Below, piece by piece: positions 12,989 through 23,769 of a DNA stretch of 23,769 nucleotides. The DNA lies in the IMG/VR virus record IMGVR_UViG_3300010885_012533, positions 1-23,769 of that record; one strand, given 5' to 3'. The translations under genes were made by a program, and so were the position numbers. The stretch's first letter is position 1. Every line of letters starts with the position of its first letter. The notes under the pieces were generated by a model. That model was not told where the DNA came from. It worked only from the letters and a program-made list of their open reading frames with translations, and ran no database searches. The stretch is from a virus.

Positions 12989-13152
12989 AAAATTATATAT
13001 AGTTTACAATACAATATACAAAATACCCCCCACATTTCCTAAGACAGAATTTACCCCCTCCTACAAAATGTTCCGTGTTAGACGGTGTAATGGGGTCCTA
13101 ATCAACTTCTCCCCCACTTACTTTCAGGGCACTAAAACCCCCTATATTCAAC
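12989..13152. promoter_or_regulatory. Divergent control region with four C5-C6 tracts
   Basis: This 164-base gap lies between the leftward PhoH-like gene and the first rightward gene, so it must carry start signals for both arms. It contains C-tracts on the plus strand at 13026-13031, 13054-13058, 13111-13115 and 13138-13142. Start-to-start spacings are 28, 57 and 27 bases, close to a 28-base repeat with one unit missing. Such tracts are rare in this AT-rich DNA. No exact TAnnTTTG element is present on either strand. The tracts may be binding sites for a phage regulator or polymerase. Confidence 0.6.
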
Positions 13153-13413
13153 ATGGTATACTTCGTAAAGACAACAGACAACGGCATCATCGTAGCCGAA
13201 AAGCAAATTGGTACAAAGACAGTAACAATTGCAGGTGTAACCAAAGAGGTGAACACCCAAGGTGGAAAACTTGGATTCGTGGCATGGGAAAATGCCAAGG
13301 CTGAATTAGAAGTAGAGAGAGGTGATAAATTACCATTCTCTATCACTGATAAGGCAGTAACAAGAAAGGATAGAACTGTAGTACCAAACTTGTATTGGTG
13401 CAACCCTGATTAA
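13153..13413 (+). CDS. 86-aa beta-rich protein, first rightward gene
   Basis: Begins MVYFVKTTDNGIIVAEKQIG and alternates short strands throughout (KTVTIAGVTKEVN, KAELEVERGDKLPF). It is probably a small all-beta protein. As the first gene from the divergent region it is likely expressed early and strongly. It has no membrane segment, signal peptide or recognised domain. The last C-tract lies 11 bases upstream of the ATG. A 9-bp hairpin and structured RNA candidates follow it. Confidence 0.75.
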   Translation: MVYFVKTTDNGIIVAEKQIGTKTVTIAGVTKEVNTQGGKLGFVAWENAKAELEVERGDKLPFSITDKAVTRKDRTVVPNLYWCNPD

Positions 13414-13431
13414 TTCAGGGGAAACATTGCT

Positions 13432-13458
13432 GGGACCTGCATCTTACTTGCAGGTTCC
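13432..13458 (+). other. 9-bp RNA hairpin after the first rightward gene
   Basis: GGGACCTGC (13432-13440) pairs over its full length with GCAGGTTCC (13450-13458), including one G-T pair, around a 9-base loop. No T-run follows, so it is not a classical terminator. It could be an mRNA 3' end stabiliser, a processing site, or the first element of the structured noncoding stretch that continues to 13686. Confidence 0.55.
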
Positions 13459-13487
13459 ACATGTTACATGTTACCTACAACCTACTT

Positions 13488-13571
13488 ATCACTGAGTATG
13501 TGCAGCTGTTGGACATCGGAGACCAACTTTATCTACACCAACCTGTTAGGTGAGCTGCATAACTCATTGAT
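13488..13571 (+). ncRNA. Structured RNA candidate B (three-way junction)
   Basis: The ends pair: ATCA-C-TGAGT-ATG-TGCAGCT (13488-13507) with AGCTGCA-TA-ACTCA-T-TGAT (13553-13571), giving 7+5+4 bp with small internal loops. Inside are two hairpins, GTTGG/CCAAC (13508-13512, 13523-13527) and CACC/GGTG (13536-13539, 13549-13552). No convincing gene occupies the stretch. The fold was read by eye; no energy or covariation was computed. Confidence 0.5.
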
Positions 13572-13573
13572 AA

Positions 13574-13686
13574 TGTGTGTGTTACTGTGGTTGACAGACA
13601 ACATCAGTCCTTTTCTTCATTCATTCAAATTCCCTTGATGCACACAAAAAGTTGCGGATAGGATGGCTATAACTAATTCACACACA
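13574..13686 (+). ncRNA. Structured RNA candidate C, low confidence
   Basis: TGTGTGTG (13574-13581) can pair with CACACACA (13679-13686), closing a 113-base segment. One internal hairpin is GTTG/CAAC near 13590-13602. The stem is a simple dinucleotide repeat and so weak evidence. The 10-mer CACACAAAAA occurs at 13641-13650 and again at 13681-13690, giving an alternative partner for the TG-rich strand. The segment ends about 14 bases before the next ATG. Confidence 0.3.
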
Positions 13687-13700
13687 AAAACCATTTACAC

Positions 13701-13991
13701 ATGGAAACAGTATTTTTAGTTTATTACGACAATGGATTAACTTATGAAGACCATTACGTATCTGTAGACAAAATCTTTAGTTCTAAAGAATCTGCACATA
13801 AGTATGCAGAAGAGAAGAATGCACCACTGCAAAAGTATACACCTTCTGTTACAGAAGAGAGATATATTTCTGAAAACTGGAGTGAAACTACTGGTTACAC
13901 TTATGCAGACTTCATAGAGAATGAGCATTATGAGTGGAGTACTAATGTAGATTCTAGATATTATGTATCCGTAATGGAGGTAAATCCATAG
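13701..13991 (+). CDS. 96-aa protein of unknown function
   Basis: Starts METVFLVYYDNGLTYEDHYV and continues into KIFSSKESAHKYAEEKNAPL. This strand-then-helix pattern (V-F-L-V-Y-x-x-N...S-x-E-x-A-x-x-Y) is seen in small phage proteins that report no known function. It is acidic and Tyr-rich and has no membrane segment. It is flanked on both sides by structured noncoding stretches. Confidence 0.7.
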   Translation: METVFLVYYDNGLTYEDHYVSVDKIFSSKESAHKYAEEKNAPLQKYTPSVTEERYISENWSETTGYTYADFIENEHYEWSTNVDSRYYVSVMEVNP

Positions 13992-13996
13992 ATTCT

Positions 13997-14077
13997 TGAC
14001 AGCTCACCAGTGAGCTCCATAACATACCAAGACTATTATAGTATTAGTATAGTTAGGGGGTCATCAGTGAGCTGTCA
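13997..14077 (+). ncRNA. Structured RNA candidate D with two competing pairings
   Basis: TGACAGCTCAC (13997-14007) is perfectly complementary over 11 bp to GTGAGCTGTCA (14067-14077). The same 5' strand can instead fold locally, GCTCA (14002-14006) with TGAGC (14011-14015), because the 9-mer CAGTGAGCT occurs twice, at 14008-14016 and 14065-14073. An inner hairpin GACTAT/ATAGTT (14031-14036, 14049-14054) sits between. The segment starts five bases after the preceding stop codon. Two mutually exclusive states suggest a switch or attenuator. Confidence 0.5.
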
Positions 14078-14093
14078 CAATTCCTTAATGCAA

Positions 14094-14208
14094 CAGGTGT
14101 ACACAAATTTGTTAGAGATACACTTACAAGATAGTAATAGGCTTGTAAGAGCAAAGCAGGTATCTCATTAGACAATCAGGTTTACTTGAGCGTCTTAGTG
14201 TACATCTG
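14094..14208 (+). ncRNA. Structured RNA candidate E (long closing stem, two arms)
   Basis: CAGGTGTACAC (14094-14104) pairs with GTGTACATCTG (14198-14208) over 11 bp including one G-T. Arm 1 is GAGATAC/GTATCTC (14115-14121, 14160-14166) enclosing the perfect 8-bp CTTACAAG/CTTGTAAG (14123-14130, 14142-14149). Arm 2 is AGAC/GTCT (14170-14173, 14192-14195) enclosing TCAGG/CTTGA (14176-14180, 14185-14189). This is the best-formed of the noncoding folds in the window. It has no tRNA signature loops. Confidence 0.55.
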
Positions 14209-14272
14209 TATGCATATAGGAACAAATTAATTTAAAACTAAAGGTAAGGCTACCTACAGCCATTAATGAAGC

Positions 14273-14599
14273 ATGAAAACATTCTTCAACTTTACAACCG
14301 GTAAAAGTATTAATCCATTAGAGAACATTAAATACTTCTACACCAACCCTTATATGCCTGAGAATATGAGGTTGTTGAACTTAGTTGAGAAACTAGGTGA
14401 ACTTGAATCAGGAGACGTTATCACCAGCAATGATGAGAAAGGTCACATTGTTACACTATTTCCTATTGATATGTTAATCAAGGGGGATGTAATGATAGAG
14501 TGGAGAACACAAGATTCTTTCTGTATTAACGGAAAGATGTGGTGTAAGATAACTGGAGAAGACAAAGATTGTGTTCGTGTAGATACAATCAGATTCTAA
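14273..14599 (+). CDS. 108-aa protein of unknown function
   Basis: Begins MKTFFNFTTGKSINPLENIK. The middle contains a helix plus turn (LLNLVEKLGELESGDVITS), and the C-terminal half is beta-rich (GHIVTLFPIDMLIKGDVMIE). No motif is recognised. The leader holds a small hairpin, AGGTA/TACCT at 14242-14255, about 17 bases before the ATG and after RNA candidate E; it could tune translation. A weak terminator follows the gene. Confidence 0.7.
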   Translation: MKTFFNFTTGKSINPLENIKYFYTNPYMPENMRLLNLVEKLGELESGDVITSNDEKGHIVTLFPIDMLIKGDVMIEWRTQDSFCINGKMWCKITGEDKDCVRVDTIRF

Positions 14600-14614
14600 T
14601 AGACCTTTGTGACC

Positions 14615-14644
14615 TGAGCATGTCCATAAACTGCTCATATTTTA
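14615..14644 (+). terminator. Weak intrinsic terminator
   Basis: TGAGCA (14615-14620) pairs with TGCTCA (14632-14637) around an 11-base loop and is followed by TATTTTAT. The stem is perfect but short, and the T-run is broken. It lies 16 bases after the stop codon of the 108-aa gene. Confidence 0.4.
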
Positions 14645-14667
14645 TAACCAAATTCATTTAAAAAATC

Positions 14668-14805
14668 ATGAAGCAAGTACATCTTACAATTAGAGAGTGG
14701 TACACTTTCAAAAACATTGCAACATTCTTCTATGATGTTGTAATAACCAAAGACATCATAACAGTAGAAGCCGACCGTTTTGATTTAGAACTATTAGGCT
14801 ATTAA
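14668..14805 (+). CDS. 45-aa small protein
   Basis: A short frame between two clear genes, starting MKQVHLTIREWYTFKNIATF and ending FDLELLGY. The leader (TTTAAAAAATC before ATG) matches the A/T-rich leaders of neighbouring genes, and the stop lies 23 bases before the next ATG. It looks like a small mixed strand-helix protein without a membrane segment. Function unknown. Confidence 0.55.
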   Translation: MKQVHLTIREWYTFKNIATFFYDVVITKDIITVEADRFDLELLGY

Positions 14806-14828
14806 TCAACATTTAAATTTAAACACAC

Positions 14829-15095
14829 ATGAAAAAGTTTACAGCATTCATCATCCTATCTATGGTAGTGATGACATTCATTGCTCTATTTTGTTCCTGC
14901 AACTATCCTGAACGACAACCAACATTTGTTACAAAGAGAGTCACTGTATTAGAAAACAACACCACTTCATTTGTACGTATTCCTTCAGGACTTGACAGTA
15001 TATACAGGGTAAATGACACTGTATGGTTAAACACAATCACTCACCAAATAGATGATTGTGACAGCTTCACAATGATGTCTGTTATAAAACCTTAA
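14829..15095 (+). CDS. Predicted lipoprotein, 88 aa
   Basis: The N-terminus is a typical export signal: MKK, a hydrophobic stretch (FIILSMVVMTFIALF, residues 7-21), then CSCN with Cys24 after Ser23 as the likely lipidated cysteine. The mature part of about 65 residues is polar and beta-prone (SFVRIPSGLDSIYRVNDTVW). A phage lipoprotein at the cell envelope could act in superinfection exclusion or lysis. It opens a run of small envelope proteins that continues to 16344. Family not recognised. Confidence 0.65.
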   Translation: MKKFTAFIILSMVVMTFIALFCSCNYPERQPTFVTKRVTVLENNTTSFVRIPSGLDSIYRVNDTVWLNTITHQIDDCDSFTMMSVIKP

Positions 15096-15096
15096 T

Positions 15097-15318
15097 ATGA
15101 AGAGTCTTATTCTATTTTTCATCTATCTCAGCACATTTGTGCTGGGATTTTTAACAATAAGCCTTATTGGTTTATTGTGGGCTGATAGTTACCACAATGT
15201 AATATCCAACCCAAACTGGTTTATAGCATATTCTCTTTTTATAGGATGGTGGTTAGCTGCCTTCCCTGCAAGAGAATACTATTTACATAACGAACAATAT
15301 TTTGATGACTACATTTAA
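15097..15318 (+). CDS. Small membrane protein with two transmembrane segments
   Basis: 73 residues, with hydrophobic helices at about 3-27 (LILFFIYLSTFVLGFLTISL) and 41-58 (WFIAYSLFIGWWLAAF), joined by a short polar loop containing DSYHNVISNPN. The C-terminus is acidic and aromatic (YYLHNEQYFDDYI). The ATG follows the lipoprotein stop after one base, so the two are co-translated. A holin-like or exclusion function is possible, but size and topology alone do not decide. Confidence 0.7.
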   Translation: MKSLILFFIYLSTFVLGFLTISLIGLLWADSYHNVISNPNWFIAYSLFIGWWLAAFPAREYYLHNEQYFDDYI

Positions 15319-15328
15319 ATTTTAAACC

Positions 15329-15538
15329 ATGGCAAACAAAAAGAGTTTTTTACTATTTATGACAATCTTCATGACTATTAGTACAATAGTGATGATGTTT
15401 TTAGGCTTTGCATACCTACCTGTAAGCAGAGAAAGTTTTATTGCAGTTACAGTTATTAGTGTATTAGGATATCTAACAGCAGGTTGCTACTATGATTCCT
15501 ACCGTAAAATCAAAATGGAGGAGGCTGACTATGAATAA
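15329..15538 (+). CDS. Small membrane protein with two transmembrane segments
   Basis: 69 residues. Hydrophobic segments lie at about 7-29 (FLLFMTIFMTISTIVMMFLG) and 36-54 (FIAVTVISVLGYLTAGCY), followed by a short charged tail (KIKMEEADYE). It is similar in size and layout to the preceding two-helix protein. Its end contains GGAGGAGG, which serves as the Shine-Dalgarno sequence of the next, overlapping gene. Confidence 0.7.
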   Translation: MANKKSFLLFMTIFMTISTIVMMFLGFAYLPVSRESFIAVTVISVLGYLTAGCYYDSYRKIKMEEADYE

Positions 15539-15755
15539 AGATATAGTAAAACTAATAATAGCAAATGCACTTGTATTAGTTGCAACAATGTTATTCATAT
15601 GGGGATGGCAATCTTATAAGAATCAGCCTCATCCATGTCAATATCAGTTCATAGTTACAGACGATAGTGTCACTGTATACGATTCTAAGGAGATTGTAGG
15701 CACTATAAAGCTGGACGGTAGCCTTGACAGCCTAATAACAGAAGATAACAAATAA
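15531..15755 (+). CDS. Single-pass membrane protein, 74 aa
   Basis: The frame opens at 15492, but the start at 15531 (MNKDIVKLIIANALVLVATM) places a good Shine-Dalgarno, GGAGGAGG, about 7 bases upstream and gives a clean N-terminal anchor (residues about 7-26). This start overlaps the previous gene by 8 bases. The remaining part is a small beta domain (YQFIVTDDSVTVYDSKEIVG) followed by an acidic tail. It is likely anchored in the inner membrane with the beta domain outside. This is one of the few genes here with a classical ribosome binding site. Confidence 0.7.
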   Translation: MNKDIVKLIIANALVLVATMLFIWGWQSYKNQPHPCQYQFIVTDDSVTVYDSKEIVGTIKLDGSLDSLITEDNK

Positions 15756-15758
15756 TTA

Positions 15759-15800
15759 GTGTGTGAAAGCCTGGAGATAACGTCAAAGGGCTTCACATAC
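15759..15800 (+). other. 12-bp hairpin at end of the membrane-gene run
   Basis: GTGTGTGAAAGCC (15759-15771) pairs with GGCTTCACATAC (15789-15800): 12 pairs including one G-T, with one bulged A, and a 17-base loop. No T-run follows. It begins 3 bases after a stop codon and ends 25 bases before the next ATG, so it may protect the 3' end of the upstream mRNA or act as a processing site. Confidence 0.55.
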
Positions 15801-15825
15801 ATTAAATCATTAAAAACTAACAAAC

Positions 15826-16173
15826 ATGAGTAGAGCAAATCAAAATGCTAAAGAAGAATTTCTATCATCTATCAGCACTAGACCTGTTAAATGTGCTGAA
15901 ATAGTTTACACAGCATCTAGTCTGTGGGCTATGAATGAAGAAGATGGTCCTGCACCTAAGAAAATATTTCTCAAAGTGGGGTATAATGAAACTGCTTGGG
16001 AAGAGTTTCTTGAACAGCTTGACTTTGATTATGATGCAGGATATGGTGGTCAAGAGTTGTTCGGTACTATATGGTTTAGTGCAAGTGATGAATGGATGAC
16101 CAGAGGAGAATATGATGGTTCAGAATGGTGGCAAGTACACTCTAAACCTAGAATACCGGAAGAACTTTTTTAA
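15826..16173 (+). CDS. 115-aa acidic protein of unknown function
   Basis: Starts MSRANQNAKEEFLSSISTRP. It is rich in acidic and aromatic residues, with SDEWMTRGEYDGSEWWQVHS near the C-terminus. The centre (EEFLEQLDFDYDAGYGGQEL) suggests a helix followed by a beta sheet. The small size and high negative charge recall phage DNA-mimic or inhibitor proteins, but that is speculative. No family recognised. Confidence 0.65.
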   Translation: MSRANQNAKEEFLSSISTRPVKCAEIVYTASSLWAMNEEDGPAPKKIFLKVGYNETAWEEFLEQLDFDYDAGYGGQELFGTIWFSASDEWMTRGEYDGSEWWQVHSKPRIPEELF

Positions 16174-16191
16174 ACCCTTAAACTTTAAAAC

Positions 16192-16344
16192 TTGAACAAG
16201 TACACATTTATTAAGGTTGCATTAATTGCAATCACATTAGGAACATTGGCATTAATTACAATGTCTAGTTGTAGAACAGGATATGGTTGCAGAGGCAACC
16301 AGTCCTGGAACAAAATGGTGAGACGTATAAACTCACCAAAATAA
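16192..16344 (+). CDS. 50-aa predicted lipoprotein with TTG start
   Basis: There is no ATG start upstream (an in-frame stop lies two codons before), but TTG at 16192 opens a frame encoding NKYTFIKVALIAITLGTLAL after the initiator, then ITMSSC. This is a complete lipoprotein signal with Cys26 as the likely lipidated residue. The mature peptide RTGYGCRGNQSWNKMVRRIN plus SPK is short and basic. Tiny lipoproteins with a GYGC motif and basic tail are, as I remember, common in Bacteroidetes, which supports the reading. The function is unknown; envelope location is inferred. Confidence 0.65.
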   Translation: MNKYTFIKVALIAITLGTLALITMSSCRTGYGCRGNQSWNKMVRRINSPK

Positions 16345-16368
16345 TAAATTAACCTAAAACTTATAAAA

Positions 16369-17484
16369 ATGGAAACAATCCAATTAGTACAACCACAGCA
16401 AGAATTTAAAGATTTTATGGCTTTACCAGACGGTTTAGCAAAGAATATAAGTTATTACAATAACTTTCAAAGCAGAAACTTCACTGATGCATCTATCACC
16501 AGAAAAGATGGACATATTTATTATGCAGCCAACACTTTTAAAGTGGTAAAATCAACCAAAAGTAGTTACTATATCAAAAGAGTGACTAAAGACGGTTTTA
16601 CTATTAATGAAAAAGGTAAACTATCTATATGGTTTGGCAAAAGTGTTTTTCAACTACCTCATATAAGTCAGGTATTTATGCATTTTAATTTTAATTGGTT
16701 AGATGTTAAGCTGTATCCTTTTGTAACTAAAGGTATATTTGAAAAAATGATTGCAGGTAAGCTTACAAACAACACAGATGTTTGTAAAGCATATATTAAA
16801 GCAATGAGACTTAACTGTAGTCCAAGTTTGTTCTTGCAGTTATTTCAGACAGGAAGTATATCCAAACAAGATTTTCTTCGTAGAGCATCAGTTGCTAAAG
16901 ATATTAATCATTTCATTGAACATTTATTATTACCAAATGACAACAGAAGTCTTTTGGTTTATGAAGATATGGTGAAAGAAGCATTGATTCTTGAGAAGAA
17001 AATAGACTACAAGTGGTCTTCTAAAAGATTAACAGAAGAACATAAGGCTTGGACGGAACAAATTATGCAGATAGAGATTGATGCTCTTGAAGATAAAGTG
17101 ATTCCATTTATAGATAAATTTGATAGGTATACACCTGATGGATTTAAACTTCTAAAAACACAAAAAGAAGTTTTTTATGAGGGTAAGACAATGAAGCATT
17201 GTTTGTATACAGCATATTGGAGTTCTATAAAGAACAATAATTATATTGCCTATCACATTACATCAGGAGATGAAGAAGTCACTCTTGGTATCAATATTTA
17301 TGATGATAAATTAAGATACAACCAATGTTATAGTAGATTTAACGGACCTGTTAGTTCTAAAATGCATGTTATAGTTACAAATTTTGTAGAACAGTTGAAT
17401 GAACAAGTGGAACGTGATGGTATCCTAAAGGAAACAAAGATTGAATATAAAGTAAACCCCATTTTTAACGAACTTCCATTTTAA
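16369..17484 (+). CDS. PcfJ-like protein, 371 aa
   Basis: The C-terminal part carries the PcfJ-family pattern: FYEGKTMKHCLYTAYW (269-284) with the conserved Met-x-His-Cys, then EEVTLGINIYDDKLRYNQCY (302-321) and SRFNGPV (322-328). The N-terminal 200 residues are a variable region with helices. PcfJ was named from a plasmid conjugation locus, and related genes are found in phages and mobile elements of Firmicutes and Bacteroidetes; the biochemical role is unknown. It is the largest protein in the rightward block of this window. Arginine codons are mainly AGA (9 of 12), unlike the capsid gene. Confidence 0.65.
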   Translation: METIQLVQPQQEFKDFMALPDGLAKNISYYNNFQSRNFTDASITRKDGHIYYAANTFKVVKSTKSSYYIKRVTKDGFTINEKGKLSIWFGKSVFQLPHISQVFMHFNFNWLDVKLYPFVTKGIFEKMIAGKLTNNTDVCKAYIKAMRLNCSPSLFLQLFQTGSISKQDFLRRASVAKDINHFIEHLLLPNDNRSLLVYEDMVKEALILEKKIDYKWSSKRLTEEHKAWTEQIMQIEIDALEDKVIPFIDKFDRYTPDGFKLLKTQKEVFYEGKTMKHCLYTAYWSSIKNNNYIAYHITSGDEEVTLGINIYDDKLRYNQCYSRFNGPVSSKMHVIVTNFVEQLNEQVERDGILKETKIEYKVNPIFNELPF

Positions 17485-17487
17485 ACC

Positions 17488-17685
17488 ATGATTAATTTAA
17501 GTAAAAACGAAGTTGAAAACCTCTATCCAAAAAACCAATTAGAACCACCACCTAATCAAATAAACACAGAATCAGGACTATGTATGTGGGAAATTAAAAG
17601 CATTAAAGATGACTGTATCTATAGGATATGGGCAAACACGTATAAAGAAGCACTTGAAATGCTACCACAGATTGAATCATTCTAA
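17488..17685 (+). CDS. 65-aa protein of unknown function
   Basis: It starts three bases after the PcfJ-like stop with MINLSKNEVENLYPKNQLEP, so it is probably co-translated with it. The rest has a beta-beta-alpha look (CMWEIKSIKDDCIYRIWANT then KEALEMLPQIESF), like small domains that accompany other phage proteins. No motif is recognised. Confidence 0.65.
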   Translation: MINLSKNEVENLYPKNQLEPPPNQINTESGLCMWEIKSIKDDCIYRIWANTYKEALEMLPQIESF

Positions 17686-17695
17686 AACTAGTTTT

Positions 17696-17863
17696 ATGAA
17701 GATGATTAAACAATTACTATTCGGAGAACCGATAAAGGGGGAAAAACTACCTAAAGTAGTTCCCCCTAAAGAACGACCAATGAACACTAAAGACTTTGCA
17801 CAATGGTGTAAAGAGTTCAACGTTTCTATGTTACATGACAAAAAAATAATCCACATTAACTAA
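17696..17863 (+). CDS. 55-aa protein of unknown function
   Basis: The frame opens at 17609, but the part before 17696 lies inside the previous gene. ATG 17696 (MKMIKQLLFGEPIKGEKLPK) lies 10 bases after its stop and is preferred. The N-terminal segment is a short amphipathic helix followed by a Pro- and Lys-rich linker. The C-terminal half (NTKDFAQWCKEFNVSMLHDK) is helical. The coding sequence contains a strong inverted repeat at 17736-17767. Confidence 0.6.
   Translation: MKMIKQLLFGEPIKGEKLPKVVPPKERPMNTKDFAQWCKEFNVSMLHDKKIIHIN
17736..17767 (+). repeat. Inverted repeat inside a coding region
   Basis: AGGGGG (17736-17741) pairs with CCCCCT (17762-17767), and AACTAC (17745-17750) pairs with GTAGTT (17756-17761) around a 5-base loop, with three extra As on one side. 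Such a 12-bp stem within an AT-rich gene could slow ribosomes or act as a binding site. Confidence 0.7.
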
Positions 17864-17880
17864 AATTTAAAACTAAAAAC

Positions 17881-18213
17881 ATGTCAAAAAGAAATCCAAT
17901 CAAATGGACTAGTCCAGAAGTAATGCAAATTGTATCTGAAGAAATACAAAAGTCTCCAGGAAATTTATCAAGTGCCTTTAGACAAATTAGTGTAAAAATG
18001 AATAGCACAGAAAGTGCCATTACACAAGCATGGTACAAAACATTAAGAAACAAATTTTCACAGTTTCACACAGGAAGTAATCAAGTGGTGTTATCTAACA
18101 CCAAGAATGTACCTAGGAAAGCAAATAATGCTCCTATTCACGAAAAAATATTAAGTTCAGCTGTATATGATGGTATGAGAGTAGTTACCATCAAACAATA
18201 TTATGCTGTATAA
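17881..18213 (+). CDS. Small Myb/SANT-like DNA-binding candidate, 110 aa
   Basis: Residues about 7-58 show a three-helix pattern with spaced aromatic residues: IKWTSPEVMQIVSEEIQ, then NLSSAFRQISVKMNSTESAI, then TQAWYKTLRNKFSQF. The W...F...W(Y) spacing and the Asn-Ser-Thr-Glu-Ser-Ala-Ile turn before the third helix resemble Myb-like or RsfA-like helix-turn-helix domains. The tail is basic with Asn and Lys, consistent with DNA binding. I infer a phage transcription regulator. The large structured stretch 18225-18476 lies directly downstream. Confidence 0.55.
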   Translation: MSKRNPIKWTSPEVMQIVSEEIQKSPGNLSSAFRQISVKMNSTESAITQAWYKTLRNKFSQFHTGSNQVVLSNTKNVPRKANNAPIHEKILSSAVYDGMRVVTIKQYYAV

Positions 18214-18224
18214 AGATGGTGAAG

Positions 18225-18476
18225 CTTGCAATAACAAGCACGTTCTGTTTATGACATTTAAGGGCTTAGGCTAATAAAATTTGTCATTTTAAGATGGAAC
18301 AAGGGGTATGTCCTTACCCTAACCTAATGAACTTAGGAGTGATCAACCATGGACGTGTGCTTTGACAAGATTCTTAGCTAATCAGGGATGAAAACATAAC
18401 CTGTAATGATGCCTAACCAAGTATTCCCTGTCGGACTTTAAACTACCTTATGTGGGTTCATAGAACGCTGCAAAGA
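18225..18476 (+). ncRNA. Large structured RNA candidate F, about 250 nt
   Basis: Long-range pairing closes the segment: CTTGCA (18225-18230) with TGCAAAG (18469-18475, one bulge) and CGTTCT (18241-18246) with AGAACG (18462-18467). Internal hairpins are GGGTA/TACCC (18304-18308, 18315-18319), the perfect CCTAA-TGAAC-TTAGG (18323-18337), and CAGGGA/TCCCTG bracketing about 18382-18430. Alternative pairs compete at the 5' end: GCTTG/CAAGC at 18224-18239, and GTTCT/GGAAC enclosing ATGACA/TGTCAT (18251-18256, 18282-18287). No gene longer than a few dozen codons fits here. A terminator candidate follows. Confidence 0.4.
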
Positions 18477-18494
18477 ATAGTACACCGGCTCATT

Positions 18495-18518
18495 CAAGGT
18501 GGGAGAAGCCTTGTTTTT
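18495..18518 (+). terminator. Intrinsic terminator candidate after RNA F
   Basis: CAAGG (18495-18499) pairs with CCTTG (18509-18513) around a 9-base loop and is followed directly by TTTTT. The stem is short, but the layout is standard. It would end an RNA covering 18225-18513 just before the next gene at 18540. Confidence 0.5.
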
Positions 18519-18539
18519 ATAACCATTAAAAAATAAACA

Positions 18540-19085
18540 ATGGAAACATTTAACTTTAATCATGATAATGAAACAATAATCAAAGCTCTTGGTGTAACAG
18601 AAGAGATTGATATGAAATGTAGAGAAATATTATTTTTCTCTATGATTAGTAACCATTTTATGGCAAGAGAACTGTTTGATAATGTAGAAGATGCACCTAA
18701 AGCATTAACTACACTAACAGGAGATCTTGAAAAGTGTATTAAACTATGTAGTAATACCGTAGAAAGCAGTTACATACTACTTACATTTAAAGACTTTCAT
18801 AGAATGGGAATGGATGCAATTGCAAAATATACTATTTTTACAAAATCTAAAGATGAACGTAAGAAAGAAATAGAACTAATGTTAAAAATATTTGAGTTGG
18901 ATATTATGAAAGAGGCATCAAAAAGTAATGGTGACTGTATGATACCAACAGATATATTTAAGAAGATAGATCTTGTAAAGAAATCAAGATATAATTTTGA
19001 TAGATATTTACAGTTGTGTAACGGAGAATCAGAAGTGGACACTATTTTAAACAACATCTTTAAAGATGGAGAATCAACGAACTAA
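18540..19085 (+). CDS. 181-aa helical protein of unknown function
   Basis: Begins METFNFNHDNETIIKALGVT and is helical almost throughout (EEIDMKCREILFFSMISNHF, DERKKEIELMLKIFELDIMK). The leader AAAAAATAAACA is A-rich without a Shine-Dalgarno sequence. The gene ends inside the start of the HTH gene (20-base overlap), so the two are translationally linked and may work together. No motif is recognised. Confidence 0.7.
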   Translation: METFNFNHDNETIIKALGVTEEIDMKCREILFFSMISNHFMARELFDNVEDAPKALTTLTGDLEKCIKLCSNTVESSYILLTFKDFHRMGMDAIAKYTIFTKSKDERKKEIELMLKIFELDIMKEASKSNGDCMIPTDIFKKIDLVKKSRYNFDRYLQLCNGESEVDTILNNIFKDGESTN

Positions 19086-19344
19086 AAACGGATTTGGACT
19101 GGTGAGCTGTACAGTGATGCGTGACCCTGAAGTTTCTTTAGGGGAGAAAGCTGTATATGCTCATCTATCCACTTACGCTGACAGTTCAAACAGTCTTTTT
19201 GTAAGCATAGACAGAATTGCTACAGAATGTGGCATATCAACATCCACTGTTAAAAGACAACTATTTCTTTTAGAAAAGAAAGGAATAATATCACGTGTGT
19301 CTAGAGGACATAAACTAACTAAAATCACAATCTTAATCAAATAA
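19066..19344 (+). CDS. Helix-turn-helix protein (HTH_36-like), 92 aa
   Basis: The segment VSLGEKAVYAHLSTYADSSN (23-42) followed by FVSIDRIATECGISTSTVKR (46-65) and LFLLEKKGIISRVSRG (67-82) is the classic winged helix-turn-helix arrangement found in phage replication initiators and regulators of the HTH_36 type. Here the domain stands alone, without the C-terminal part of an initiator, so a transcription regulator or origin-binding accessory is more likely. It overlaps the 181-aa gene by 20 bases and is followed after one base by the 75-aa gene. Confidence 0.75.
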   Translation: MENQRTKNGFGLVSCTVMRDPEVSLGEKAVYAHLSTYADSSNSLFVSIDRIATECGISTSTVKRQLFLLEKKGIISRVSRGHKLTKITILIK

Positions 19345-19345
19345 A

Positions 19346-19573
19346 ATGAAAGAATCATTCAAATTAGAAATTAATGCTACATCAATAGATGGTGAAAGCA
19401 TAGAATGTAAAATAGAAGCTGCCGTGTCATGTTCAAGTGAAATGGCCATTGGTGTATTAGTACAGCTTATTAAAGGAGACAATAACATAAAAAGATTGTT
19501 GATGAGAGCTATGATGCAAGAATTAACATCCTCAGTAGATTCATCTAAAGATAATTCTGAACCAGAATTGTAA
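19346..19573 (+). CDS. 75-aa protein of unknown function
   Basis: Starts MKESFKLEINATSIDGESIE, one base after the HTH gene stop. The pattern is strand-rich (IECKIEAAVSCSSEMAIGVL) then helical (NIKRLLMRAMMQELTSSVDS) with an acidic tail. It is probably co-expressed with the HTH protein as a partner or modulator. Family not recognised. RNA candidate G starts six bases after its stop. Confidence 0.65.
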   Translation: MKESFKLEINATSIDGESIECKIEAAVSCSSEMAIGVLVQLIKGDNNIKRLLMRAMMQELTSSVDSSKDNSEPEL

Positions 19574-19578
19574 AATAT

Positions 19579-19729
19579 TAGTATGATTGAGGGAGCCATG
19601 GTAGCTTAACTTGAGAGGCAAGTACGTACTGTTTATAAGAAACTGTTTCCTGCACTGCTAGAACTCTTCTCTTATAACTTAAGGTCAGAGCACTGTCTAA
19701 ATTAGATGCTATGTCCCTTCAATATACTA
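19579..19729 (+). ncRNA. Structured RNA candidate G, about 150 nt
   Basis: The ends pair: TAGTAT (19579-19584) with ATACTA (19724-19729), and TTGAGGGA (19587-19594) with TCCC-T-TCAA (19714-19722, one bulge). Inside are the perfect 8-bp TTATAAGA/TCTTATAA (19633-19640, 19670-19677), ACTTG-agagg-CAAGT (19609-19623) and TCTAA/TTAGA near 19696-19706. No gene fits the stretch. A promoter candidate and a tRNA-like fold follow directly. Confidence 0.48.
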
Positions 19730-19730
19730 T

Positions 19731-19757
19731 TTTGTAAACTGATTTACTGTATATTTG
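19731..19757 (+). promoter_or_regulatory. Bacteroidetes-type promoter for the tRNA-like gene
   Basis: TATATTTG (19750-19757) is an exact TAnnTTTG -7 box, and TTTG (19731-19734) lies upstream with 15 bases between (19 start to start). Transcription would begin about 7 bases after the -7 box, around 19764, almost at the first base of the tRNA-like acceptor stem (19767). That agreement supports both calls. Confidence 0.5.
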
Positions 19758-19766
19758 TAAAATATT

Positions 19767-19840
19767 AGCCAAGTAGCTCCAACTAGCAGAGCCCCATCAT
19801 TGTAGGTGGGAGGGTATGGGTGAGAATCCCATCTTGGCTA
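19767..19840 (+). tRNA. tRNA-like cloverleaf, apparent anticodon UGU (Thr), atypical loops
   Basis: A 7-bp acceptor, AGCCAAG (19767-19773) with CTTGGCT (19833-19839), then discriminator A. D stem GCTC/GAGC (19776-19779, 19789-19792). Anticodon stem CCCATC/GGTGGG (19793-19798, 19805-19810) with loop ATTGTA; U33-UGU-A37 would read Thr codon ACA. T stem ATGGG/CCCAT (19816-19820, 19828-19832). The D loop CAACTAGCA lacks the GG pair, the T loop TGAGAAT lacks TTC, the anticodon loop size is off by one, and no CCA is encoded. It is either a degenerate tRNA or a tRNA mimic. It ends 19 bases before the next ATG. Confidence 0.55.
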
Positions 19841-19859
19841 ATTTTTTAAATCTTACATT

Positions 19860-20168
19860 ATGGTAGAATGCATCTGTATCAATGATTCCAATCGTCCTAA
19901 AGAAATTCCTGTTAATAAATGGGTTAAACAAGGTGAGCCTTATACAGTGATATACACTGTCACTGTGCTACCACAAAAGCAATTAGCTTTCCATTTAGCA
20001 GAAATAGACCTGGACGAGTCCAATCTTCCATATGAATACTTCTTGGCAAACAGATTTGCATTTACAGAAGAAAACTTACAGAAGTTAATAGAACTTATTA
20101 AAGATTGTAACGATACAGACTTCAGTATGGACGAACTATTAAAACAAACAGAATTAGAACAAGCTTAA
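19860..20168 (+). CDS. 102-aa protein of unknown function
   Basis: Starts MVECICINDSNRPKEIPVNK. The motif IPVNKWVKQGEPYTVIYTVT (16-35) is a small beta domain seen in phage proteins of unknown role. The second half is helical and acidic (FTEENLQKLIELIKDCNDTD). The leader is the 3' flank of the tRNA-like element, so the gene may share its transcript. Confidence 0.7.
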   Translation: MVECICINDSNRPKEIPVNKWVKQGEPYTVIYTVTVLPQKQLAFHLAEIDLDESNLPYEYFLANRFAFTEENLQKLIELIKDCNDTDFSMDELLKQTELEQA

Positions 20169-20177
20169 AATTAAATT

Positions 20178-20531
20178 ATGAATCAAAAAATGTACAGAGT
20201 GACAAACACTCACGACTATAAAAGTGAAAATAAAATTGTTCATGAGTATACTATTATGCAGTATAGGAACAATAATGGACATGAAGTGACAGCTCTTCAC
20301 AGAAGCCACGATGAAGTGTGGGCTGAAGAAGTGAGAGGACAAGAAATTATAAAACTTATAGACACAGGAGATATGATTATGTATCCTAAAAAGATGTTTG
20401 TGGGTGATGTAGACTATGCAATGCATGCAGAGTTATTTATTGTTCTTGGATTTCTGAATAAAACAGATAGAATGCCTTTATATCAAGGTGTAATAGAAGA
20501 AATAGTTGAAAACAATACAATCACCATATAA
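20178..20531 (+). CDS. 117-aa protein of unknown function
   Basis: Begins MNQKMYRVTNTHDYKSENKI, 9 bases after the previous stop. It has a mixed alpha-beta composition with a hydrophobic strand near the end (HAELFIVLGFLNKTDRMPLY). It is not a membrane protein. It lies in a run of five closely packed genes (19860-21278) with an A/T-rich leader. Family not recognised. Confidence 0.7.
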   Translation: MNQKMYRVTNTHDYKSENKIVHEYTIMQYRNNNGHEVTALHRSHDEVWAEEVRGQEIIKLIDTGDMIMYPKKMFVGDVDYAMHAELFIVLGFLNKTDRMPLYQGVIEEIVENNTITI

Positions 20532-20541
20532 ATTTCACCAA

Positions 20542-21093
20542 ATGACTCCAGAAACTCACAAAGAACTAGTAGATAACTATCTAGATCATATACAAAGGTA
20601 TATGAAAGATACCGGTGGATTGTTTCCACATATTGTAATATTTGCAGAACATAAAACTCCTGAAGAAAATCAACCAGCAAATTCTATTATTCACATTCCT
20701 ATTCCTTCACAGTATATGGATACCGAGAATGATAAAAATGAGCTTGTAGATGAGATATTTCCATCAATATTTAAAAAGGTGAATGAAACATTTATACCTT
20801 CTGCCATAGGATGGGCATCAGAAGCTTGGATGAGAACTGCAGGAGCTGACTTTGATATAGACAAAGAAGATTACAAAACACTTCCTATACAAAAAGAAGT
20901 GTTGTTTATATGTATTGAGACAGCCAATGATTCTAAAACTTATGTTTATGAGATAAAAAGAAACGGCCAACAAATTAATTCTGATGGAGAATTAACAGAT
21001 AGTATTGATTTAATAGAAATACCTGAAATGAAAAATGTTGATAAAACAGAAGGTAGATTTTCAGGATTGTACAAAAAACTTAAAGTATGCTAA
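20542..21093 (+). CDS. 183-aa protein of unknown function
   Basis: The frame opens at 20506 inside the previous gene; ATG 20542 (MTPETHKELVDNYLDHIQRY) lies 10 bases after its stop with a typical leader and is preferred. The N-terminal helix is followed by a beta region (PHIVIFAEHKTPEENQPANS) and by IGWASEAWMRTAGADFDIDK in the middle. Strands near residues 123-144 (KEVLFICIETANDSKTYVYE) suggest an alpha-beta fold. No motif is recognised. It overlaps the next gene by 7 bases. Confidence 0.7.
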   Translation: MTPETHKELVDNYLDHIQRYMKDTGGLFPHIVIFAEHKTPEENQPANSIIHIPIPSQYMDTENDKNELVDEIFPSIFKKVNETFIPSAIGWASEAWMRTAGADFDIDKEDYKTLPIQKEVLFICIETANDSKTYVYEIKRNGQQINSDGELTDSIDLIEIPEMKNVDKTEGRFSGLYKKLKVC

Positions 21094-21278
21094 AATTTAT
21101 AAAATCTTTATTTAACAAAGGTAAAATTACAGAATTAGAACTTGAGAATAAAGAGTTGAAAGACAAACTTGCAAAAAGACAAGAGGTGATAAATGAAACT
21201 AATGCCTATTGGAAGAAGAAATTACATGCATTAGAGGCAAAAAAGAAGAAAACAAAAGGTGTTTCTCACGACTTATAG
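21087..21278 (+). CDS. 63-aa coiled-coil protein
   Basis: The ATG lies within the last codons of the previous gene (7-base overlap, ATGCTAA). After a short hydrophobic start (MLKFIKSLFNKGK) comes one long charged helix (ITELELENKELKDKLAKRQE) with leucines and isoleucines at heptad spacing, then a Lys-rich tail. It probably forms a dimeric or oligomeric coil, perhaps with the 183-aa protein. Confidence 0.65.
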   Translation: MLKFIKSLFNKGKITELELENKELKDKLAKRQEVINETNAYWKKKLHALEAKKKKTKGVSHDL

Positions 21279-21333
21279 CCCTATACTCCAACATTTATAT
21301 ATACAATTGGATATTTGATGTTAATATGTTCTA

Positions 21334-21352
21334 GCTTTATATTATATAAAGC
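21334..21352 (+). promoter_or_regulatory. Hairpin just upstream of a start codon
   Basis: GCTTTATA (21334-21341) pairs perfectly with TATAAAGC (21345-21352) around a 3-base loop, ending 6 bases before ATG 21359. The position would cover the ribosome landing site. It is AT-rich and would melt easily, so it might act as a temperature- or protein-sensitive gate, or simply stabilise the 5' end. Confidence 0.5.
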
Positions 21353-21358
21353 AACACA

Positions 21359-21616
21359 ATGTTATATCAACTACCCAACGGAAAGGTTATAGAGATGAGT
21401 ACTGAACAGTACTTAGAGATGACAGATGAAGATTTTGAATATCTAATAGCCTATAATTATGGAGAAATGCAAGAAAATCCGTGGTTTGGATCTGTTATAA
21501 CAAAGAATCCTCCACCGGACATCATTCTAGATGAAATAACACCAGAGCTAACAGATATGTCACAAGATGAAAAACTTCTTGATCTTGATCTTGATAAAGA
21601 CTTATTAGAAGAATAA
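21359..21616 (+). CDS. 85-aa acidic protein of unknown function
   Basis: Starts MLYQLPNGKVIEMSTEQYLE. The N-terminal half reads as a small domain with the segment EMTDEDFEYLIAYNYGEMQE; the C-terminal half is strongly acidic (LDLDLDKDLLEE at the very end). Acidic tails of this sort occur in proteins that contact DNA-binding or capsid partners. A clear terminator follows at 21650, so this gene ends a transcription unit. Family not recognised. Confidence 0.7.
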   Translation: MLYQLPNGKVIEMSTEQYLEMTDEDFEYLIAYNYGEMQENPWFGSVITKNPPPDIILDEITPELTDMSQDEKLLDLDLDKDLLEE

Positions 21617-21649
21617 GACTAGCCCCCAAATTAAATTCAAACAAAAACT

Positions 21650-21680
21650 GTCCTCAGAATATTCTGGGGATTTTTATTTA
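21650..21680 (+). terminator. Intrinsic terminator
   Basis: GTCCTCAGA (21650-21658) pairs with TCTGGGGAT (21663-21671), 9 bp with two G-T pairs and a 4-base loop, followed by a T-rich tail (TTTTATTT). It lies between the 85-aa gene and the 159-aa gene, and the latter starts within 20 bases of the tail, so read-through or a nearby promoter must supply it. Confidence 0.7.
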
Positions 21681-21698
21681 ACAAAAAAAACAAAAACT

Positions 21699-22178
21699 AT
21701 GTCAAAAGCAATTGTAACTGCAGACAAAACCGGAAATGTAATTGGAGTATCTCAAAACAATCCAGAGTATGGATACATTAGAGTGGAACAAGAAACAACT
21801 CAAATTAATGACCAAGGATGGTTAAGAAAAGTAAAAAGAGGAGCCCTTATAAAAGGTAAGGTGCAAGATCTTATTGATTGTGCATATAAAGCAGGTGATG
21901 AAATTACAGGTAAAATTGTAGTGAGAGAATCCCTAACTCCTTTTAATCCAAATAATCCAGACCGTGATTTGAAAGTTGCAGGTAACACTGGTGTTATTTG
22001 TCGTTTAGATGATCAACCAATCTATCGTCAAACATTTTTTACTAATGATTTAGAAGCTGGTGATCAGTTTATTATGCATACTAACACTGATGAAATCAGA
22101 GATGTTCAAAGTGCACAGAGAGCATTGGTAAGTATGACACTTAACAATAAATCTGCTAATGAGACAATAAATATGTAA
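21699..22178 (+). CDS. 159-aa beta-rich protein, possibly single-strand DNA-binding-like
   Basis: Starts MSKAIVTADKTGNVIGVSQN. The body is beta-rich, with RGALIKGKVQDLIDCAYKAG, EITGKIVVRESLTPFNPNNP and LKVAGNTGVICRLDDQPIYR as likely strands. The repeated strand pattern and small size would suit an OB fold like a single-strand DNA-binding protein, but no diagnostic residues are visible, so I leave it open. It stands alone between two terminators (21650 and 22193) with an A-rich leader, the arrangement of an independently and strongly expressed gene. Confidence 0.75.
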   Translation: MSKAIVTADKTGNVIGVSQNNPEYGYIRVEQETTQINDQGWLRKVKRGALIKGKVQDLIDCAYKAGDEITGKIVVRESLTPFNPNNPDRDLKVAGNTGVICRLDDQPIYRQTFFTNDLEAGDQFIMHTNTDEIRDVQSAQRALVSMTLNNKSANETINM

Positions 22179-22192
22179 TTATAGAAATTAAT

Positions 22193-22221
22193 AGCCTGGG
22201 ATACTATTTCCCAGGCTTTTT
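22193..22221 (+). terminator. Strong intrinsic terminator
   Basis: AGCCTGGGA (22193-22201) pairs perfectly with TCCCAGGCT (22209-22217) around a 7-base loop, followed by TTTT. It is the clearest terminator in the window, ending the transcript of the 159-aa protein 15 bases after its stop. Confidence 0.9.
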
Positions 22222-22242
22222 AAACAAACAAAAAATAAGATT

Positions 22243-22752
22243 ATGCAAAACAATCAAAACAAAACAATCACGGTAAACAACAAGGGTATGATAATTTATT
22301 ATACCGACACAAACAAACACCAATTCATAAAGTTTGAAAACCAAGATTTTCCTAAAAGAAAAACTACCAATTACCAAGAGATTGAAAAGCCTGTGTTTAA
22401 TCAAAAACAACAGAAAATGTATTCAGAGGCTTTATATGGACTTAGCATCTATCCAGAAAGTATGGTGTCTAAAATGCCTAAAAAGATATTAATGAAGATA
22501 ATCACCCGTTGTGAAACAGTTCAAAGAGTGATTAACAGATGGAAACAAGAAATTGTAAACGATAAAGTGGATTTATTTCTAACCACTACATTCCCTAAAT
22601 CTCCTATTGTAAAACAGATGATAGGAATTGAAGCCGATGACACAATAAGATGTAACTTTTCTCTAAAAGAACTTGACTTAAATCAAGAAAAAATTGCTAG
22701 AAAGTTAGTATCTTTAAACTTATTACCAGTAAACTTTTTTAATTTAGCTTAA
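22243..22752 (+). CDS. 169-aa protein of unknown function
   Basis: Starts MQNNQNKTITVNNKGMIIYY. The N-terminus is Asn/Gln/Lys-rich, and the middle (MYSEALYGLSIYPESMVSKM then PKKILMKIITRCETVQRVIN) is helical and basic. A hydrophobic helix-rich end (KIARKLVSLNLLPVNFFNLA) closes it. Its stop shares a base with the next ATG (TAATG), so it is coupled to the HNH-like gene. It might be a DNA- or RNA-binding protein by charge; no family recognised. Confidence 0.7.
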   Translation: MQNNQNKTITVNNKGMIIYYTDTNKHQFIKFENQDFPKRKTTNYQEIEKPVFNQKQQKMYSEALYGLSIYPESMVSKMPKKILMKIITRCETVQRVINRWKQEIVNDKVDLFLTTTFPKSPIVKQMIGIEADDTIRCNFSLKELDLNQEKIARKLVSLNLLPVNFFNLA

Positions 22753-23147
22753 TGATAACACCTAAACTTAAAAAATGCAGTGGTTGCAATCAACAGAAAC
22801 ACATATGGAAGTCTGATAAAAAAGACAAATATTGTAAAGAATGTTGGTATACCATTGAAAAACCCAAATCTATTTCCCCTGTCTCTACAAAGAGACGGGG
22901 TGAGATGGATGAATATGCTAGACTAAGAGATGCATTTCTTACAGCTAAACCAAGATGTGAAGCTAAACTAGTAGGTTGTACAGGTGTGTCAACAGAGATA
23001 CACCACAAAGCTGGTAGAGTGGGAGATAAATATCTTAGGATAGGTACATGGCTAGCAGTATGTAGAAACTGTCACACATGGATAGAGATTAATCCTGCTG
23101 AAGCTAAAGAACTAGGGTTCTCAGAGTCTAGACTTAATGAGTCATAA
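22752..23147 (+). CDS. HNH-type zinc-binding nuclease-like protein, 131 aa
   Basis: An N-terminal zinc ribbon has C9-x2-C12 and C28-x2-C31. The C-terminal part has C69 and C76, then EIHHKAGR with His84-His85, and CRNCH (C104, C107, H108), the layout of small phage HNH proteins that combine a structural zinc site with a beta-beta-alpha-metal active site. Possible roles are DNA nicking in replication or packaging, recombination, or gene transfer as a free-standing homing-type nuclease. It is translationally coupled to the preceding gene. Confidence 0.75.
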   Translation: MITPKLKKCSGCNQQKHIWKSDKKDKYCKECWYTIEKPKSISPVSTKRRGEMDEYARLRDAFLTAKPRCEAKLVGCTGVSTEIHHKAGRVGDKYLRIGTWLAVCRNCHTWIEINPAEAKELGFSESRLNES

Positions 23148-23168
23148 GACACTCAAAATGTAGCATAA

Positions 23169-23207
23169 AACCATCATTAATGACACATTATGCCCTTAAT
23201 GTTGGTT
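23169..23207 (+). other. 11-bp hairpin with one mismatch after the HNH-like gene
   Basis: AACCA-T-CATTAA (23169-23180) pairs with TTAATG-T-TGGTT (23196-23207), giving 6+5 bp around a T-T mismatch with a 15-base loop. No T-run follows. It lies in the 125-base gap between the HNH-like gene and the 88-aa gene, which also holds the palindrome ACAATATTGT. It could act as an mRNA end or a regulatory site. Confidence 0.5.
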
Positions 23208-23272
23208 ATATTGTGCAAAAATAACAATATTGTAAATAATAAACAACAGTCACCAATTAAAACCAAATAAAT

Positions 23273-23539
23273 ATGGTCCATTTAGAAAATCCACCATTAG
23301 AACAAGCAGTAAGACCAATGCCTGAAGCAATGGATGCACCAAAAGAGTACAGACCAAGTAATTCAGAACTTCTTAAAGAGTATGAGATTAGATTACAGTT
23401 CTTAAGTAGAGGCTGCATTGTACAAGTAGGCTGTAAAAACATAGCATTTGAAACAGTAGAGTCTGCTATGAAAGAAGTGAATGAGTATGTAAACAATCCT
23501 TTTGAGTGTCAGCAGAAGTGGAGAAAGATTTTAAGCTAA
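23273..23539 (+). CDS. 88-aa conserved-looking protein of unknown function
   Basis: Starts MVHLENPPLEQAVRPMPEAM. After a Pro-rich start comes SELLKEYEIRLQFLSRGCIV and then QVGCKNIAFETVESAMKEVN, followed by a helix with NPFECQQKWRKI. Similar small proteins occur, as I recall, widely in Bacteroidetes phages and hosts, without known function. Its stop codon lies inside the 5' strand of RNA candidate I, so translation and RNA folding would interfere. Confidence 0.7.
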   Translation: MVHLENPPLEQAVRPMPEAMDAPKEYRPSNSELLKEYEIRLQFLSRGCIVQVGCKNIAFETVESAMKEVNEYVNNPFECQQKWRKILS

Positions 23540-23638
23540 CTAGCCCACAGGCCATGGGATCGTAAGTTCAGGAACACCTCTCAGAATAGACTACATGTCT
23601 TGCACAGGTGCAACAGTCCTCTAAATCGTTAGTTAGCT
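23534..23638 (+). ncRNA. Structured RNA candidate I, overlapping a stop codon
   Basis: AGCTAACTA (23534-23542) pairs perfectly over 9 bp with TAGTTAGCT (23630-23638). The 5' strand includes the TAA stop of the 88-aa gene (23537-23539). Inside are CCCA-caggcca-TGGG near 23544-23558, GTTC/GAAC near 23566-23575, and TTGCA-cagg-TGCAA near 23600-23613 bracketed by GACT/AGTC. No gene fits. Confidence 0.48.
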
Positions 23639-23644
23639 GTATTG

Positions 23645-23754
23645 GCAACTTATACAGGGAAGTTAAAGTTGCAACATAGTCAGGTGGTGGAATTGGTAGT
23701 TTATCCAATAAAAAGTAAGTGAGGATGAGTAGTTACTTCTATCAATCCTATCTG
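23645..23754 (+). ncRNA. Hairpin plus tRNA-length fold at the window end, low confidence
   Basis: A hairpin GCAAC/GTTGC (23645-23649, 23668-23672) precedes a 74-base segment whose ends pair over 7 bp including G-T pairs: CAGGTGG (23681-23687) with CTATCTG (23748-23754). Just inside is TGGTGGAATTGGTAG (23685-23699), identical to the D-arm consensus of bacterial tRNA-Leu. Inner pairs are ATTGG/CCAAT and AAGTAA/TTACTT. No T arm with TTC is found, so a functional tRNA is not supported. The last 15 bases of the window show nothing. Confidence 0.3.
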
Positions 23755-23769
23755 CATTACTAACTAAAA

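Follow-up and report, generated by a model that had tools for sequence, protein, structure and literature searches.

Conserved structured RNAs in the tRNA/tmRNA region of crAss-like freshwater phages as candidate families of trans-acting phage RNAs

What occupies the gaps between the small genes of a phage when no plausible gene can be placed in them? This question is raised by the IMG/VR virus fragment IMGVR_UViG_3300010885_012533 (23,769 bases, the whole of which is hereafter called the window), which comes from an uncultured crAss-like phage and has such gaps in its rightward block of small genes. A preliminary description of the window had placed structured noncoding elements, here numbered e1 to e6, in most of these gaps. 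Our analysis upholds this proposal in part: the gaps are present, the open reading frames (ORFs) inside them are short (one of them, 13468–13638, is interrupted by an indel of 37 nucleotides (nt) in the related locus L003), and most of the elements are borne out by homologues and by covariation. Comparative evidence supports e3, e4, e5 and e6 well as conserved structured RNAs. These four are probably unrelated RNA gene families of ~110–310 nt that lie in the transfer RNA (tRNA) and transfer-messenger RNA (tmRNA) region of crAss-like freshwater phages and act in trans. The elements of the window, with their adjoining boxes, terminator and tRNA-like sequences, are given on the plus strand.

The homologues are carried by related IMG/VR contigs, a freshwater phage group, which were retrieved via PcfJ-like, PhoH and portal proteins and via DNA patterns. 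L numbers (L002, L003 and so on) denote the loci fetched from these contigs; L226 and L167 are one record, and L002 is the closest relative of the window. When the fetched loci were searched with profiles, each element proved to have relatives, with 4 distinct sequences for e3, 7 for e4, 10 for e5 (17 after a covariance-model search) and 16 for e6, of which 17 homologues were found. The order e4 then e5 is kept in several relatives. The covariation of e3 to e6 lies above that of shuffles and, for e3 to e5, also above that obtained with slid pairing partners. The structures of the latter three were predicted by RNAalifold from the same alignments in which pairs were later counted, a circularity that the slide controls address in part.

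The strongest case on these comparisons is e5 (19574–19734). Its closing helix of 20 base pairs (bp; 19579–19601/19709–19729) has 99.4% of its cells paired across the 10 homologues in a plain MAFFT alignment, with both sides altered in 13 of the 20 pairs, and it encloses an inner helix (19613–19619/19690–19697). Over the whole structure 96.4% of cells are paired versus 34–51% when slid, 17 pairs are altered on both sides, and none of 500 shuffles matched the covariation. The 17-sequence set leans towards the covariance model from which it was obtained, whereas the 10-homologue alignment does not. That model, which was derived from the plain alignment, finds matches in 13 of the 47 related records, the weakest at an E-value of about 1e-5. 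In most copies, the nucleotides that adjoin the closing helix on its inner side are AGTA (5′) and GAAA (3′), an internal motif which we take to resemble the loop-E motif.

The e4 RNA (18211–18494) is a multi-helix structure of ~280 nt, with 8 helices and 7 homologues, that ends in an intrinsic terminator detected by a terminator scan (CAAGGTGGGAGAAGCCTTGTTTTT, 18495–18518). Across the full span (18211–18518), 91.5% of cells are paired versus 34–42% slid, and 13 pairs are altered on both sides; the terminator is kept in six of the seven homologues, with compensatory stem changes on both sides. The e3 RNA forms a three-way junction whose ends, 14094 and 14208, had been placed correctly from the outset. 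It consists of P1 (14094–14104/14198–14208), P2 (14115–14121/14160–14166), a covarying P3 with the conserved loop ATAGYAATAGG, and P4; in its 4 sequences 93.9% of cells are paired versus 25–44% slid, with nine pairs altered on both sides.

The helices of e6 (23540–23675) are Pa (23544–23547/23555–23558), Pb (23570–23573/23617–23620), Pc (23575–23578/23607–23610) and S1 (23637–23641/23653–23657). S1 is crossed by S2 (23645–23650/23667–23672), which makes an H-type pseudoknot probable. The covariation of Pa, Pb, Pc and S1 exceeds that of 500 shuffles, the nested Pb and Pc switch together between two sequence groups, and S2 is invariant save for G–U. These statistics are optimistic, since the helices were chosen by eye and their scores come from a hand-edited alignment, in which a gap was shifted in one group and one loop base was removed in three rows; Pc was also recovered by RNAalifold on the unedited alignment, where it changes from CACC/GGTG to CGCT/AGCG. 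The closing stem initially drawn for this element (23534–23544/23628–23638) is not conserved and was rejected, with 42% of its cells paired, much as in shuffled sequences (39%). A second candidate pseudoknot, pairing the loop CCCAT with ATGGG, was dropped by inspection, being missing in the A group and in L185. Between the window and L002, e6 is 96.6% identical and the nearby DNA about 85%. Its pattern had zero exact matches in a bacterial and archaeal genome collection.

The exceptions to Watson–Crick pairing on the plus strand are mostly G–U rather than A–C, namely 40:4 in e4, 30:5 in e5, 7:1 in e6 and 8:3 in e3, a count biased towards G–U by a structure prediction that permitted it. As the opposite strand would turn these pairs into A–C mismatches, the excess suggests that selection acts on the plus-strand RNA, and indel lengths that are not multiples of three were likewise counted for an RNA reading. 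Of the two further checks named at the outset, the search for compensatory changes in relatives found them in e3, e4, e5 and e6, and the comparison of folding energies with dinucleotide shuffles divided the elements: e1 (13485–13575, z-score −4.7), e2 (−8.0) and e3 (−5.3) fold better than shuffled sequence, and the other three do not.

As had been noted, the elements are not copies of one another; the architecture that they were thought to share is not borne out, the folds of e3 to e6 being unrelated. All four fall outside every family of Rfam 15, a search of which was proposed in the same description: there was no match in the window at E ≤ 5, nor in the relatives at E ≤ 2, at E ≤ 0.5 and at the gathering thresholds. 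The Rfam matches in the window and relatives were confined to tRNA, tmRNA and a group I intron, apart from weak ones at chance level, and none of them lay on e3 to e6; the identification of e4 or e5 as tmRNA, intron or another Rfam family was rejected for want of such a match. Among isolated phages, a DNA search with the right arm (13001–20900, E ≤ 1e-3) returned only short, weak or tRNA matches, and one with the e3 to e6 regions (E ≤ 1) nothing beyond tRNA fragments and weak or short matches, with no homologue of the four elements. A literature search on crAss-like noncoding RNA and "phage-encoded tmRNA" returned no papers.

Among known RNAs, GOLLD and ROOL, which are noncoding and structured, occur in phages and prophages, often near tRNA islands, and have no known function (PMC12286853). 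By raw counts, e5 resembles them in having a tRNA or tmRNA alongside and e6 in having a tRNA or tRNA-like sequence, and the probable pseudoknot of e6 has a parallel in the several predicted ones of ROOL. However, many GOLLD members exceed 800 nt, against about 110–310 nt in e3 to e6, the folds are unrelated, and the GOLLD and ROOL covariance models matched neither the window nor any relative searched. In several relatives e5 is followed by a phage copy of tmRNA (RF00023), either immediately or with a tRNA-like sequence in between, but e3 to e6 do not match the tmRNA model, and the Rfam search found no tmRNA in the window. Phage tRNAs occupy the same region, and tRNA-like sequences follow e6; the four elements differ from them in having neither a cloverleaf nor an Rfam tRNA match, and the tRNA-like sequences of the window are separate from them. 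The stable RNAs C and D (species 1 and 2) of phage T4 are small RNAs of unknown function that arise from the phage tRNA cluster via tRNA processing. In these traits they would be the closest small analogues of e3 to e6, T4 itself being unrelated.

At the 3′ end of e5 in the window, a pattern match identifies a promoter-like site, TTTG-N15-TATATTTG (19731–19757), presumably akin to Bacteroidota promoters, upstream of a tRNA-Thr-like gene (UGU; 19767–19840). In the window, L169, L189 and L225 this site separates e5 from the following tRNA or tmRNA, and L002 has it ahead of the same tRNA. The gene scores 35.6 bits with the Rfam tRNA model, above the gathering threshold of 29; ARAGORN makes no call, and the predicted fold has an anticodon loop of 6 rather than 7 nt. 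In L002 the homologous gene receives a normal tRNA-Thr call. In L226, L169, L189 and L227, e5 is followed by a tRNA-Thr-like sequence and then by tmRNA, and in L225 the tmRNA starts 41 nt after e5; a tRNA stands directly upstream of e5 in L221 and directly downstream in L223. In all, the raw count of e5 copies with a tRNA or tmRNA beside them is the window and seven relatives. tmRNA genes score over the Rfam cut-off in 9 of the 47 related records. Among the tmRNA coordinates are L169 1136–1556, L225 6515–6925, L226 3114–3603, L227 3766–4249, L189 790–1239 and L218 663–1110, and some of the tmRNA genes of related phages have tag peptides predicted by ARAGORN.

Nearly all the e6 homologues examined have, after the element, a tRNA-like sequence whose acceptor-like stem is 7 bp long. 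The stem is perfect in L183 (AGTCAGG/CCTGACT) and broken in the window, where the sequence directly 3′ of e6 (23679–23765) is apparently decayed by comparison with relatives. In L002, L164 and L175, tRNA-like 3′ ends come after e6, and in L108 e6 itself starts 6 nt after a tRNA-Met. In L150 (1138–1243), L172, L185 and L108 the sequence after e6 is conserved, with an anticodon loop that reads TTGTCTC and a variable arm some 11 bp long; in these four it is called as a tRNA by neither ARAGORN nor Rfam. A group I intron (96.1 bits) occupies L231 3202–3476, with a distant e6-like match about 540 nt away. Decayed tRNAs had been among the first suggestions for the elements, and such sequences do occur, the tRNA-Thr-like gene ending the gap that opens at 19574 and the broken-looking sequence ending the last gap, but both lie outside the segments that had been marked as elements. 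Another of those suggestions, RNA decoys, gained evidence neither for nor against it.

These surroundings bear on the view that e3 to e6 are themselves remnants of mobile or tRNA-derived elements, such as decayed tRNAs or intron or transposon relics, that are now functionless. The differing genome positions of e6 beside tRNAs, the damaged look of the tRNA-like sequences in the window, the intron near the e6-like match and the clean absence of e5 from L002 would all suit that view. Nevertheless, it is very improbable, since the compensatory changes across divergent phages indicate that the folds are or were selected, and the four elements have no intron, tRNA or other Rfam match even at lenient E-values.

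A second alternative is that they are cis-acting elements of messenger RNAs (mRNAs), that is, structures of 3′-untranslated or intergenic regions that stabilize, terminate or separate the messages of small early genes and have no role in trans. The position of the elements fits this: e4, e5 and e6 begin at or a few bases from the upstream stop codon, a feature already remarked upon, and e4 does so whatever the upstream gene is. The terminator at the end of e4 and the makeup of e1, a hairpin with a promoter-like box, are of the same kind. However, the same fold appears after unrelated upstream genes and before different downstream ones. Thus, the upstream gene of e4 comes from at least four clusters and its downstream gene from two, and the gene neighbors of e5 and e6 vary between phages as well, which disfavors a tie to any single mRNA. 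Further, e6 of L108 comes after a tRNA and not an ORF, and the conserved unpaired stretches and the probable pseudoknot exceed the needs of a stability hairpin. We regard an exclusively cis-acting role as unlikely.

The best reading of e3 to e6 is that they are lineage-specific phage small RNAs acting in trans, whose transcription and function we infer. Their setting among tRNAs and tmRNAs points to stable RNAs that work on translation or tRNA metabolism. They would be made inside rightward transcripts, from which they could be released by tRNA-processing enzymes or end at a terminator. As stable RNAs of the infected cell they would act in trans, their likeliest target being the host's translation or tRNA system that the adjoining phage tRNAs and tmRNAs serve. 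A more speculative step would be to see here a small-RNA island tied to the phage tRNAs and tmRNA, whose unrelated structured RNAs might jointly help to seize or protect translation, for example through tRNA processing, ribosome rescue or host tRNA-cutting defenses. If confirmed, e3 to e6 would add four new structured RNA families to a lineage in which the Rfam matches here are limited to tRNA, tmRNA and a group I intron. They would also link structured RNAs with phage tmRNA and tRNA genes, so that a single system would allow tests of why phages have additional stable RNAs.

Several observations weigh against such a trans-acting role or against the RNA families themselves. First, the elements are known here from DNA and not from transcripts, and the support for e3 is limited to 4 sequences and that for e4 to 7. 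Second, the folding energies of e4, e5 and e6 (z-scores −0.5, −1.0 and −1.1) are no better than those of the dinucleotide shuffles; we accept these elements because the comparative evidence overturns the energy result. Third, L002 has a clean gap ~160 nt long in place of e5, and the copy in the window has AGCT and GATG in place of AGTA and GAAA, a departure from its relatives that suggests it may be decaying or diverging. Fourth, the adjacency of the elements to tRNAs and tmRNAs is given in raw counts with no random-position baseline, and for the e5 copies of L219, L222, L224 and L228–L230 the ~2 kb fetched contains no called tRNA or tmRNA. Finally, the gene clusters c9 and c17 are partly conserved neighbors, which leaves room for roles in cis.

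For the two remaining elements a role in cis is more likely: e1 would be a hairpin accompanied by a promoter box, and e2 a palindromic hairpin. The 84-nt fold proposed for e1 (13488–13571) was rejected as a conserved RNA, its outer stem being gone in L003, its one close relative. It competes with a hairpin at 13541–13597 of the type seen in the folded relatives, where a local hairpin stands upstream of a promoter-like box. In the window this box is TGCGGATAGGATGGCTATAA (13653–13672); its consensus GCGGATNARATRGCTATA occurs as one exact copy per locus in 15 loci, usually 3–70 nt upstream of an ATG, and the pattern had zero matches among 100 shuffles of the window. The simplest reading of e1 would be a promoter preceded by a hairpin of terminator-like or leader type. 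The portal gene is also directly followed, on the opposite strand, by variants of the box (GCGGAT...GCTATAA) at L098 10645, L122 12773, L110 7136 and others.

Both arms of the long hairpin e2 (13997–14077) contain a palindromic box (GCTCACCAGTGAGC-like), and the element recurs in about 16 relatives at varied places. It, and perhaps e1, might be a DNA element, for instance a set of operators or part of a replication origin, and not an RNA. That each arm has its own palindromic box, that matches occur on both strands, that e2 lies between divergent genes in L013, L038 and L062, and that its exceptions to Watson–Crick pairing number only 26 G–U to 14 A–C all speak for DNA. Against this, the long-range pairing of the arms covaries in the alignment of 16 contigs (392 versus a shuffled mean of 126 and maximum of 218), as an RNA hairpin would also predict. 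We consider the two roles of e2 equally likely.

In the leftward block, the window encodes a PhoH protein and a portal protein (PHROG 6547, E 2e-88), the latter related to the portals of crAss-like phages and of the Leptolyngbya phage Lbo-JY46. Elsewhere in the window, a short strong hairpin at 15759–15800 (z-score −5.2) has 88–91% identity in L007 and L057, and intrinsic-terminator-like hairpins lie between small genes at 21650–21676 and 22193–22222.

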